A DNA stretch of 64,000 nucleotides, from positions 1-64,000 of the forward strand of contig CAJXZG010000011.1 in NCBI GenBank assembly GCA_913063265.1, given 5' to 3'. Under the pieces are notes generated by a model that saw only the letters and a list, made by a program, of their open reading frames with translations, had not been told where the DNA came from and did no database searches. The position numbers and the translations under genes were made by a program. The DNA comes from an uncultured Prolixibacteraceae bacterium. Lineage in GTDB: Bacteria; Bacteroidota; Bacteroidia; Bacteroidales; Prolixibacteraceae. Positions 30,215 to 59,585 of the stretch are shown here, piece by piece. Each line of letters opens with the position of its first letter. The first letter of the stretch is position 1.

Positions 30215-31996
30215 ATGAATAATTTAAGAACACATTTATTTCTTCTGAGTTTTCTGATTTTTCTTTTTACTGGGTGTGAGAATTATAGTAGAAAGGATAT
30301 TTATGAAAGACCTGAATGGTTGCCCGGAAAACTTTATACTACAATTTTGGTTAACGAGAATCTTTCTATGTTTGCCGAATGTTTAAGACTTTCCGGTTTG
30401 GATACTATTATTGATGTTTCCGGGAGTTGGTGTGTTTTTGCACCTTCTGATGATGCCATGAAACAATATCTTGCAGAAAATCATTATTCCGGTATTTCTT
30501 CTATTCCGGCAGATGAACTTGAAAGAATTGCAAAATTCCATATTATTCAGAATCCGTGGTCGCTTGAACAGTTACAGAGTCTAAGCGCTTTTGGGTGGAG
30601 AACGGGCAGCGGCACCGATGATTGGTATTCACATGCTTACAAACGCCAGACCATACTCAAAAACTCCAACGAAAAATACTGGATTAAAGGAGTGAATAAT
30701 AAGGAAAGGATAGTCACAGATTCTACAATTACAAAAAGCTATAAGAAGGTTTTTGTGCAATCGAGAAAAAATGCACCGGTATTTTATGATGATTATGTGA
30801 ATATAAATGAAATTTCTTCCTCTGATTACAGTTTTTATTTCGACAGGAATTATGAGCCGGGGAATGTATATTTTGCCGGTGCCAAAATCATTGAGGCCGA
30901 TATTTTAGCCGAAAATGGTTTTTTACATATTGTCGACAGGGTAGTACAGCCTATGTTAAATGCAAAAGAAATGCTCGAACGCGAAATGCCCAACGAAAGT
31001 TATAAGCTCTTTTTGGAAATGGTGTATTGGTATTACCCCTTTTTTGAGCCAAATATGATTGCCACCAACAACCAGTCCGGAGTCAGATATGGAGAAGTTG
31101 TTGATACTTTATGGGACTTAAATTATCCATACCTTGTTTTTGCTCCGCACGTAGAGCAAATTGGTGTTGAAGGTCCAGCTGTAAACGAAACATTTGCTAT
31201 CCATAAAGGGTTATATGCACCAACCGATAAGGCTTTTAAGAAATTTATAGATAATATTCTAACCATAAAATCGGGCTATCCGCACTGGAGAGATTATAAA
31301 TCACTGCCAAGAGATATTACTGATATTATCATTGCTTCTCATTTTAAAGACGAACCTGTTTATCCGTCAAAAAGCAGTTATAAAAGAATTTTTAAATGGA
31401 ATAATGGATATAAACAGGATGAAAGTGCCATAATACGTAGCGAATTTGGAAGTAATTGTACATTTATCGGAATTGATTCTTATACTCCAAACCGCGTATT
31501 TACAAGTGTAACCGGTCCGGTTTTTCTACGTCCCAATTTTTCCTTGTTCCGGCAAGCTTTGCTTTATTGCGATATCGAGGATGATATATCTTATAAAAAT
31601 GAAGACTTGTATTTTTTCCCAATTTCAGATCAGGCTTTAAAATCAGATTCATCATTGATAATCAACTGGATTGATAAAGAAAAAAACCGGTACAATTTCA
31701 GTGAATTTAACCGTAAGACTGAAAAAATTGAGAGTCTTTCAAAAAATAAACTCAAGAAAAGAATCCTTAACCATGTCGGAACTTTAGTTCCAAATCAAAG
31801 TGGCAATACCATTCAGATAAAAACGCTGGATGGTAAATATATTACCTGGGATCAAACCAATAATACTATTCAAGGGAAATACCCCTGTACCATTGGGTAT
31901 AACGGAATAACCGTAACAACATGCACTCCTGTTCAGCTTAGCGAACCTGCCGATAATGGTGAAACCTGGAGTGTGAATCACTGGTTCAATTTTTAA
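30215..31996 (+). CDS. fasciclin (FAS1) domain lipoprotein
   Basis: A 593-residue lipoprotein (signal ending FTGC, Cys23). The first FAS1 domain (about 40-250) has FAECLRLSGLDTII, WCVFAPSDDAMKQYL, IAKFHIIQNPW and a closing NGFLHIVDRVVQP. A second, more divergent FAS1 domain (about 255-430) is marked by YLVFAPH, LYAPTDKAFKKFIDN and IIASHFKDEP. The C-terminal 160 residues resemble a third degenerate unit. FAS1 lipoproteins in Bacteroidota are often encoded in SusCD loci and bind surface ligands, but no SusCD adjoins this one. It faces a second FAS1 gene tail-to-tail. Confidence 0.87.
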   Translation: MNNLRTHLFLLSFLIFLFTGCENYSRKDIYERPEWLPGKLYTTILVNENLSMFAECLRLSGLDTIIDVSGSWCVFAPSDDAMKQYLAENHYSGISSIPADELERIAKFHIIQNPWSLEQLQSLSAFGWRTGSGTDDWYSHAYKRQTILKNSNEKYWIKGVNNKERIVTDSTITKSYKKVFVQSRKNAPVFYDDYVNINEISSSDYSFYFDRNYEPGNVYFAGAKIIEADILAENGFLHIVDRVVQPMLNAKEMLEREMPNESYKLFLEMVYWYYPFFEPNMIATNNQSGVRYGEVVDTLWDLNYPYLVFAPHVEQIGVEGPAVNETFAIHKGLYAPTDKAFKKFIDNILTIKSGYPHWRDYKSLPRDITDIIIASHFKDEPVYPSKSSYKRIFKWNNGYKQDESAIIRSEFGSNCTFIGIDSYTPNRVFTSVTGPVFLRPNFSLFRQALLYCDIEDDISYKNEDLYFFPISDQALKSDSSLIINWIDKEKNRYNFSEFNRKTEKIESLSKNKLKKRILNHVGTLVPNQSGNTIQIKTLDGKYITWDQTNNTIQGKYPCTIGYNGITVTTCTPVQLSEPADNGETWSVNHWFNF

Positions 31997-57711: not shown

Positions 57712-59121
57712 TTAACTAATCTCTTTAGCCATTTCAATTGCTTTTTTCAAAGCTGCTAATTTATTATTTACTTCCTGAAGTTCACTTTCTTCTTTCGAAT
57801 CAGCAACAATTCCGGCACCGGCCTGGTAATACAATTTGTTATTTTTGCTCAAAAACGATCGAATCATAATAGCATGGTTTACGGTTCTGTCGAAACCAAG
57901 ATAACCTATACATCCACCATAATAACCACGGTTTTGATTCTCGTATTTATCAATCAGTTCCATGGCTTTATATTTAGGCGCACCTGAAAGTGTTCCGGCA
58001 GGAAAAGTTTCCCCCAATACTTTTATCAGGTTTGTGTTGTCGTTTATCTCACCCGATACCTGCGAAACCAAATGAATAACATGTGAAAAAAATTGTACCT
58101 CCCGATAGGTCTCAACAATTACATTTTCTGCATTACGACTAAGATCATTTCTGGCTAAATCAACCAGCATTACATGTTCTGCATTTTCTTTGGGATCTTT
58201 ACTTAACTGTTCGGCCAGTTCACGATCCTGTTCATCGTTACCTGTACGTTTAAATGTTCCTGCAATGGGATGAATGTACGCCTTATTCTCTTTTATTCGG
58301 ATCTCAGCTTCCGGACTGGACCCGAAAATGCGGTAATTCCCATAATCAAAATAAAACAAATAAGGCGATGGATTGACAGAACGCAATGCACGGTAAACAT
58401 TAAAATCGTCACCTTCATATTCCTGAGAAAACTGCCTGCTGAGTACAATTTGGAAAACATCACCACGGTAACAATGTTCTTTTCCTTTTGTTACCATAAA
58501 TTTATATTCTTCATCGGAAATGTTGGATGCTTCTTTACCGGTTAATTGAAATTTGCCGGTTGAAAAATTCAGATTAACCAAAAGATGATGAACATAGTCC
58601 ATTTGCGACTGCTCTCCTTCCAACAGGTTTTCAACCATGTGAATGATATTTTTATGATGGTCGATGGCAACCACATACTTGTAAAAACAGTATTTTACCT
58701 CAGGGATTTTGTATTCTTCTTTGGACTCATTTTTAAATCGAATACTTTCAAAATGTTGAATCGCATCGAAGTTTACATAGCCAAACAAGCCGTTTGCCGG
58801 AAGTTCAATTTCATCAGTTTCGACATTAAAAGTTTTAAAAAAGGAATCGAGTTCATCGTGTAAAATTCTGTCTTTTGCGAGTGAAAATTTTTCTTTTTCT
58901 TTTCCGGGCAGGTCCTTTTCAACCTGACCATCGCTTACTTTAAAACAGGCCATCGGACTAAATGCGATAAATGAATATGCATTTTCGTTGCCATGGTAAT
59001 CCGAACTTTCAAGGAGAATGGATTTCGGATAAAGTGTTCGCAGTCGAAGATAAATACTAACCGGGGTTACCGTATCGGCGAGTATTTTTCTGACAACTGG
59101 TTTAAATTTTAGTTTTTCCAT
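57712..59121 (-). CDS. trpE: anthranilate synthase component I
   Basis: A 469-residue chorismate-using enzyme. The N-terminal regulatory part has LLESSDYHGNENAYSFIAF, whose LLES motif is the tryptophan feedback site. Catalytic motifs are RGDVFQIVLSRQF, PYLFYFDYGNYRIFGSSPEA, IAGTFKRTG, FPAGTLSGAPKYKAMELI and GYYGGCIGYLGF. The ATG at 59121 has GGAA upstream. A longer frame from 59151 only reads through a C-rich repeat. It is the first structural gene of trpEGDCFBA, and a leader peptide and terminator lie about 280-410 nt upstream. Confidence 0.96.
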   Translation of the reverse strand: MEKLKFKPVVRKILADTVTPVSIYLRLRTLYPKSILLESSDYHGNENAYSFIAFSPMACFKVSDGQVEKDLPGKEKEKFSLAKDRILHDELDSFFKTFNVETDEIELPANGLFGYVNFDAIQHFESIRFKNESKEEYKIPEVKYCFYKYVVAIDHHKNIIHMVENLLEGEQSQMDYVHHLLVNLNFSTGKFQLTGKEASNISDEEYKFMVTKGKEHCYRGDVFQIVLSRQFSQEYEGDDFNVYRALRSVNPSPYLFYFDYGNYRIFGSSPEAEIRIKENKAYIHPIAGTFKRTGNDEQDRELAEQLSKDPKENAEHVMLVDLARNDLSRNAENVIVETYREVQFFSHVIHLVSQVSGEINDNTNLIKVLGETFPAGTLSGAPKYKAMELIDKYENQNRGYYGGCIGYLGFDRTVNHAIMIRSFLSKNNKLYYQAGAGIVADSKEESELQEVNNKLAALKKAIEMAKEIS

Positions 59122-59132
59122 AATAATTCCAG

Positions 59133-59161
59133 CCCCCCTCAATTCCCCCAAGGGGGGAGGT
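59133..59161. repeat. C/G-rich intergenic inverted repeat
   Basis: CCCCCCTCAATTCCCCC followed by AAGGGGGGAGG, directly upstream of trpE. A second familiar-looking unit (CTCCTTTGGACAGGGTAAGG) lies at 59227-59246. Both resemble short dispersed repeats found across Bacteroidota. Confidence 0.55.
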
Positions 59162-59256: not shown

Positions 59257-59307
59257 AAAACCAGAAACGGCTCATCGCGAATTTCGATGAGCCGTTTCTA
59301 TGGTTTT
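59257..59307. terminator. strong hairpin between trp attenuator and trpE
   Basis: GAAACGGCTCATCG (59264-59277) pairs perfectly with CGATGAGCCGTTTC (59285-59298), extended by AAAACCA/TGGTTTT (59257-59263, 59301-59307). On the minus strand it ends in UUUU-A, so it could be a second terminator or a stable spacer in the trpE leader. Confidence 0.55.
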
Positions 59308-59401
59308 AACAATGGCGTTTCTTCTCTTCACGAATTTTGCAAAAAGTTGTAACGCCACCACCAAATGTTATTTAATCCTGTCATTGTAAATCTCTGTTAA
59401 C

Positions 59402-59517
59402 AAAAAAAACCTGCTTTCTAATGTTAGAAGCAGGCCTTCAATATCTTTTAAAAAATACCAATATGGCTCTTTAACTTCTAACTTACGCAAGAAGACCCCA
59501 CCACGGAAGCCATATTG
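59402..59517 (-). promoter_or_regulatory. trp operon attenuator
   Basis: Reading the minus strand: segment 1, CAATATGGCT (59517-59508), inside the leader peptide, pairs with AGCCATATTG (59468-59459). Segment 2, GTTAGAAG (59482-59475), directly after the leader stop codon, pairs with CTTCTAAC (59430-59423) as antiterminator. Segment 3/4, CCTGCTTCTAA with TTAGAAAGCAGG (59434-59410, one bulge), followed by eight T residues, is the terminator. Segments 2:3 and 3:4 exclude each other. A ribosome stalled at the Trp codons frees GTTAGAAG and allows read-through; one at the stop codon covers it. Confidence 0.85.
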
Positions 59518-59536
59518 TATTTATATTTTTAATCAT
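59483..59536 (-). CDS. trpL: trp leader peptide
   Basis: A 17-residue peptide, MIKNINTIWLPWWGLLA, with Trp codons at positions 9, 12 and 13 (three of 17, in a genome where Trp is rare). It starts about 13 nt after the predicted transcription start and stops just before the antiterminator sequence. Its translation would sense charged tRNA-Trp and set the attenuator. It is not expected to act as a protein. Confidence 0.85.
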   Translation of the reverse strand: MIKNINTIWLPWWGLLA

Positions 59537-59555
59537 ACTTTTTTGTAATCTTTTG

Positions 59556-59585
59556 CAAAGATGAACTTTTTTCAGGAAAAACAAA
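59556..59585 (-). promoter_or_regulatory. trp operon promoter
   Basis: On the minus strand TTTG (59585-59582), an 18-nt spacer and CATCTTTG (59563-59556) match the Bacteroidota -33/-7 pattern with one mismatch (C for T at the first base of -7). The predicted start is near 59549, about 13 nt before the leader ATG. It lies in the 95-nt gap after sprA. Confidence 0.65.

Follow-up and report, generated by a model that had tools for sequence, protein, structure and literature searches.

Two putative ribosome-mediated attenuators arranged in series in the trp leader of Prolixibacteraceae

We analysed a stretch of 64,000 nucleotides from an uncultured Prolixibacteraceae bacterium, hereafter the window, in which the minus strand carries a trp leader, bounded by the 3′ end of sprA (59632) and the ATG of trpE (59121); all coordinates below refer to this strand. 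trpE (57712..59121) opens a complete trpEGDCFBA cluster that reaches down to 52161, the genes being named from Pfam matches and gene order. When the whole window was scanned against Rfam at gathering scores, tRNA alone was found and nothing matched at the trp leader. The promoter-like box reported in a preliminary description of this DNA is unproven: a possible −7 element, CATCTTTG, is present at 59556..59563, but it is hardly above chance, the best TAnnTTTG score over 66 loci (4.74) being only slightly higher than that of plain shuffles (4.59, sd 0.07). A search for the TrpR family returned no member in any of 61 genomes (37 of the window's genus, including the window genome, and 24 of other families), and the control genomes of E. 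coli and B. subtilis were positive.

The first part of the leader, E1, encodes a predicted peptide, MIKNINTIWLPWWGLLA (59483..59536), with Trp codons at 59512, 59503 and 59500 (Trp9, Trp12 and Trp13). The first of these codons is contained in the 5′ arm of a shield stem, CAATATGGCT (59508..59517), which pairs with the 3′ arm AGCCATATTG (59459..59468). Between the arms, an inner hairpin (CTTCT/AGAAG, 59475..59494) would sequester the antiterminator strand if leader 1 were untranslated. This strand, GTTAGAAG (59475..59482), starts immediately 3′ of the leader-1 stop codon, and its partner, CTTCTAAC (59423..59430), is common to terminator 1 (CCTGCTT..AAGCAGG, 59402..59439), which ends in eight T (59409-59402). 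The preliminary description had proposed a frame with three Trp codons, an antiterminator strand directly behind its stop codon, a terminator that shares the antiterminator partner and ends in eight U, and a segment 1 that pairs 3′ of the antiterminator strand, and all four are borne out by these coordinates. The fold of E1 was better than that of 200 out of 200 dinucleotide shuffles (z −5.23); terminator 1 was absent from the output of a simple terminator scan. We then modelled the nascent RNA with the ribosomal A site at Trp13 and, by assumption, 12 nt covered beyond it. The resulting fold (−19.7 kcal/mol, compared with −21.0 kcal/mol for the finished RNA with the terminator) contained the 8-bp helix, a GCC/GGC helix and a nested A+T-rich hairpin. 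Because the GCC of the shield arm pairs with a GGC that precedes the terminator, and the A+T-rich hairpin nests inside, the antiterminator comprises more than eight pairs, and the earlier statement that only eight base pairs decide the outcome counted too few.

The leader had been described as a single attenuator. That description is supported for E1, but a second leader and hairpin, which it lacked, follow at 59384-59263. Leader peptide 2, MTGLNNIWWWRYNFLQNS (59328..59384), has three consecutive Trp codons at 59363-59355. The shield stem of this second unit, E2, is formed by GGTGGCGTT and AACGCCATT (59311..59359, with 59359-59351 paired to 59319-59311), and an inner hairpin again lies between its arms. 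The leader-2 stop codon falls inside the antiterminator strand TCGTGAA (59327..59333), whose partner TTCGCGA (59275..59281) is located in the loop and 3′ arm of a terminator-like hairpin, AGAAACGGCTCATCG/CGATGAGCCGTTTCT (hairpin 2, 59263..59299), followed in the window by GGTTTT. Hairpin 2 is very stable, and the z score of the E2 fold against shuffles was −7.78. In the window, the finished terminator state of E2 reached −34.2 kcal/mol versus −15.4 kcal/mol for the forced antiterminator; because the antiterminator engages hairpin 2 at its loop and 3′ arm, antitermination at E2 would have to be kinetic.

We searched 81 genomes for TrpE, of which 77 gave a match, and added named contigs, from which the best 80 loci were kept; these include Draconibacterium, Maribellus, Mariniphaga and Tangfeifania. 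Among the 119 regions upstream of trpE obtained in this way (the 80 loci from named contigs and 39 others that differ from them), a pattern search found leader 1 in 67, leader 2 in 102, both in 66 and neither in 16. Five of these 16 regions are shorter than 400 nt, and others have only two Trp codons (G046 and G058) or an RF01692 match further upstream. Leader 1 occurs in two types, W-L-P-W-W-G and W-L-W-W-G, and is kept in relatives as NTIWLPWWGLL or SIWLWWG. Covariance models R1 and R2, which we built from training sequences that include the window, detected E1 in 102 and E2 in 119 of 140 genomes of the family. E1 followed by E2 on the same strand was present in at least 96 of the 140, as judged by comparing the full list of 102 E1 genomes with the best 104 of the 119 E2 genomes. 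The two units are 25-35 nt apart in 59 of these genomes, and 30 nt separate the model matches in the window. In 16 of the paired genomes E1 is without its own terminator; the spacing is at most 3 nt in 15 genomes and 16 nt in one, all of which are without terminator 1. The gap amounts to about 645 nt in two genomes. The anatomy of two leader frames, each with a putative terminator of its own, is seen in relatives and also in the window, except for a weak U-tract after hairpin 2. Outside the family, E1 matched in 30 of 295 genomes of the order at E 0.01, strongly in two (the window genome and one congener) and at no more than 43.4 bits in the others, the sample containing few Prolixibacteraceae; of 296 genomes from the phylum, 58, the window genome among them, gave E2-like matches, which were mostly weak.

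Some loci depart from the common arrangement. In L080, L081 and L082 a gene pair encoding a nucleotidyltransferase and a HepT-like protein seems to lie between E1 and E2 (about 640 nt), as identified by Pfam matches PF18765/PF01909 and PF01934 for the L081 copy and by eye for L080 and L082. L097 and L046 (G054) carry other double W-rich leaders upstream of trpE. Their leader-1 sequence differs, which suggests that double leaders may have had more than one origin.

Pairings were examined in alignments of 48 E1 sequences (A1) and 56 E2 sequences (A2) taken from those collected, with structures defined on the window sequence; neither alignment includes the WLWWG clade, rows that were long or odd, or the majority of loci from beyond the family. 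The shuffle controls reported here ignore kinship. In terminator 1, 98.8% of the cells were paired over the 48 sequences, and one pair is C-G in 21 and U-A in 18 of them. The covariation score of the whole E1 structure was higher than in 500 of 500 shuffles; E1 pairs changed on both sides showed no excess, 371 of the 500 shuffles scoring as high. Terminator 2 was paired in 100% of the 56 sequences, with four pairs showing changes on both sides. The E1 antiterminator was examined in 62 distinct E1 sequences, minus two that were dropped (L113 and L132). Its 30 distinct strand combinations, one of them from the WLWWG clade, formed on average 6.57 of 8 pairs versus 5.94 (sd 0.11) when partners were shuffled, and none of 10000 shuffles reached 6.57; eight further WLWWG-clade combinations, outside this test, paired at 4-7 of 8 positions. 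Pair 6 occurs as C-G, U-A, G-C and A-U, and is unpaired in 8 of the 30 combinations. In the case of E2, the best duplex between leader and hairpin, which is not always the named helix, had −11.6 kcal/mol versus −9.7 kcal/mol with partners swapped (99 sequences), and own partners bound better than swapped ones in tandem and single-leader loci alike. The named E2 antiterminator helix was 92.4% paired over the 56 sequences; its first pair is C-G in 31, U-A in 14 and U-G in 10, and its sixth pair is broken in 20. Terminators and antiterminators covary. An alignment of relatives had been recommended as a check on compensatory changes in three stems: the Trp frame is kept and terminator and antiterminator give the expected signal, but the E1 shield stem is nearly invariant, so its covariation is uninformative.

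Folding of the nascent RNA with a ribosome stalled at Trp produced the E1 antiterminator in all 60 sequences, against about 18 for shuffles, and the E2 antiterminator in 93 of 99, against about 39. When the 9-nt tails of E1 were swapped across species, the antiterminator still formed in 57-60 of 60 cases and only the mean energy worsened, from −16.4 to −14.0; the E1 count is not species-specific.

Taken together, both leaders display what is expected of an attenuator, namely a short frame with clustered Trp codons ahead of a trp gene, conserved in relatives and predicted to be translated; a mutually exclusive, covarying terminator and antiterminator, with the U-tract caveat for E2 of the window; and a stop codon so positioned that a terminating ribosome would hide the antiterminator strand. 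Ribosome-mediated trp attenuation, as first proposed for E1, is still the best reading, because frame, start, stop position, terminator and covarying antiterminator are conserved together. We extend it to two attenuators, E1 and E2, that would act in series and both read charged tRNA-Trp, to which we assign a probability of about three in four. According to this model, built on anatomy, conservation, covariation and the linkage of start codon and terminator, a ribosome translating the leader when Trp is plentiful would reach the stop codon and cover the adjacent antiterminator strand, and the terminator would then form. With Trp in short supply, the ribosome would stall at the TGG cluster, the shield stem would stay open and the free antiterminator strand would pair with the terminator before the 3′ arm of the latter is complete. 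In an untranslated leader, the shield stem and inner hairpin would mask the antiterminator strand and the terminator would win. Given the close spacing of E1 and E2 (30 nt), one transcript probably passes both gates, and we infer that read-through would be the product of two Trp-dependent steps. Multiplying two such steps would make repression steeper in genomes for which the search returned no TrpR, where a series of two attenuators that read one amino acid could supply the dynamic range.

One point against the two-attenuator model concerns E2 in the window genome. The tract 3′ of hairpin 2, TTTCTGGTTTT, is interrupted and its longest T run by script count is 3, which suggests that E2 may terminate weakly here; across the 102 leader-2 loci, of which five were uncalled, the run is 7 or longer in 52, 5-6 in 33 and 3-4 in 12, the window being among these 12. 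Furthermore, about 140 nt, including a C-rich repeat-like stretch, separate hairpin 2 from trpE. Both observations would fit a genome in which E2 has decayed, hairpin 2 does not terminate and E1 is the sole working attenuator, a single switch like that of E. coli. We regard this as unlikely, though a serious competitor, since leader 2, shield stem, inner hairpin and antiterminator of E2 are intact (104.9 bits with R2, whose training set includes the window), hairpin 2 is very stable, and T runs after hairpin 2 are likewise short or broken in Draconibacterium orientale and D. sediminis. A far more deflating view would see in E1 a chance frame with Trp codons beside an ordinary intergenic terminator. 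Short frames are indeed common, and neither the Rfam scan at gathering scores nor the terminator scan had a match at E1, but frame, codons, stop position, terminator and antiterminator are kept across genera and the fold z scores of both units are strongly negative, leaving chance with a negligible share. Within the stretch between hairpin 2 and trpE we also noted a C-rich palindrome, CCCCCTTGGGGGAATTGAGGGGGG (59133-59156), which has two further genomic copies with three mismatches and look-alikes upstream of trpE in L084 and L080.

E1 itself is not uniform among relatives. Ninety distinct E1 loci that carry the core pattern, a set without L097, L132 and three loci of genus g2, were scored for a terminator ahead of E2 and for an ATG lying in frame within 15 codons. 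Both the leader-1 start codon and E1's own terminator were found in 72 loci and neither in 17; the one discordant locus, G366, lies at a contig end and has the ATG; its terminator escaped the script but is visible by eye. The preliminary description had named homologous leaders lacking the Trp codons as the finding that would speak against attenuation; what we found were instead these 17 of 90 loci, which keep the hairpin and have no start codon or terminator of their own. In all 72 loci with ATG and terminator, the leader-1 stop lies 2-20 nt before the GCCATAT arm, and in loci with neither it scatters from −21 to +185. The joint occurrence of start codon and terminator 1 speaks for leader 1 being translated in the service of termination. 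Few events lie behind the 17 loci: a TrpE tree contains six of them, which occupy two positions, one being on a long branch; in this tree L075 (E1 on another contig) and L080-L082 (E1 further upstream) were set to class T, and L089, L104, L107 and L128, with short upstream regions, were classed as 'single/other'. An E1 hairpin with no leader-1 start codon or terminator was seen in L109, L111, L113, L114, L115, L138, G046 and L147-L161 (not L162 on).

In five such loci (Sunxiuqinia, Gaoshiqia and L115), the E1 core was 92% identical over 19 nt and 100% over 8 nt with the search anchors excluded (94.5% and 100% with the anchors included), whereas identity was 40% at the fourfold sites of TrpE and 50% in the flank upstream. 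Codon choice points the same way even where leader 1 has a start codon: of 54 leader-1 frames, 52 use CCG and 53 use GGT, though both are minority codons in trpE, where, over a set of 17 loci, CCG accounts for 91 of 263 codons for Pro and GGT for 106 of 452 codons for Gly. Judging from these comparisons, leader 1 is constrained at the nucleotide level, beyond what attenuation needs. Retention of the hairpin where start codon and terminator are gone, together with the reverse situation in g2, where three of four loci have lost the E1 core and kept a Trp-rich leader and terminator (as seen by eye), makes E1 appear to have two separable functions. The second is probably a translation-independent role, and the corresponding constraint would apply to most of the Prolixibacteraceae E1 loci examined; candidates for it are the binding of a ligand, a protein or another RNA, and the tuning of leader 2 by E1. 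Somewhat short of even odds, we entertain the idea that E1 is a dual-use element, a ribosome-read attenuator in most genera and a translation-independent, cis-acting structured RNA that survives alone in Sunxiuqinia, Gaoshiqia and relatives. If this were true, the trp leader of the family would hold an undescribed regulatory RNA beside a cascade of attenuators for the same signal, and the lineages with the E1 hairpin but no start codon or terminator would be a natural control that separates the ribosome-read function from the second one.

A stronger version, which makes E1 primarily a structured RNA with a ligand, a protein or another RNA as its binding partner and the Trp codons secondary, would account for the identity of the core and for the nearly invariant codons. 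It appears improbable to us in view of the three g2 loci, where Trp-rich leader and terminator outlive the core, and because the loci in which the script detects a terminator all retain the start codon and the position of the stop; nor did a candidate ligand emerge. We considered T-box-like pairing of the tRNA-Trp acceptor end with the E1 loop and rejected it, as tRNA-Trp ranked 12 of 29 tRNAs (29 of 35 tRNA matches were compared and two more stretches were unused; an earlier pattern search for tRNA-Trp was empty), and no T-box was among the Rfam matches listed, whether at gathering scores or below them. An alternative frame from the ATG in AATATGG (MASVVGSS...) was likewise discarded, its stop codons, judged by eye, not being conserved.

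In E. coli, textbook control of trp combines a repressor with one attenuator (RF00513), in which a leader with Trp codons is followed by mutually exclusive terminator and antiterminator structures and ribosome position decides between them. The window leader appears to share these attenuator features, but has two units, and its segment 1 pairs 3′ of segment 2 and encloses it; moreover, RF00513 was not among the Rfam matches listed and no TrpR was found. How widely such a leader had been described in the phylum was a question left by the preliminary description. Its kind is already on record, as the Bacteroid-trp RNA RF01692 (Weinberg et al. 2010, PMC2864571) is a Bacteroidetes trp leader with an AUG, UGG codons and a shield stem around a Trp codon, as in the window, and PMC6414381 likens its F. 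psychrophilum form to the leader of E. coli. RF01692 was the top Rfam match to E1 over the full model, with 30.5 bits, below its gathering score of 49, which it exceeded in 5 of 81 genomes searched; the E2 of the window was not among the RF01692 matches listed. The window carries a pair, and none is mentioned for RF01692 in the portion of PMC2864571 used here. For flavobacteria, PMC9723704 reports 'strong clues' that leader-peptide attenuation operates ahead of operons for amino-acid biosynthesis; no Trp pair is named, and neither 'tryptophan' nor 'trp' occurs in its main text. A tandem arrangement is known from Salmonella mgtCBR, called a singular example in PMC3641672. There, as is proposed here, two leader-ORF attenuators share one leader, but they respond to different signals, ATP and proline, whereas both window leaders are Trp-rich. 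No report of a trp attenuator pair in Bacteroidota was found in the open-licence literature, supplements excluded, nor of an attenuator pair for one same amino acid in those parts of it that were consulted. Single trp leader-peptide attenuators are thus already known in the phylum, and the conserved tandem pair appears to be the new part. Two weaker resemblances were also recorded. A second RF01692 match of 25.3 bits at 31226-31352 is probably due to chance, and the trpB ncRNA motif RF04312 reached 26.7 bits against the window, below its gathering score of 59, its alignment likewise showing a shield stem followed by a terminator-like hairpin and a U run.
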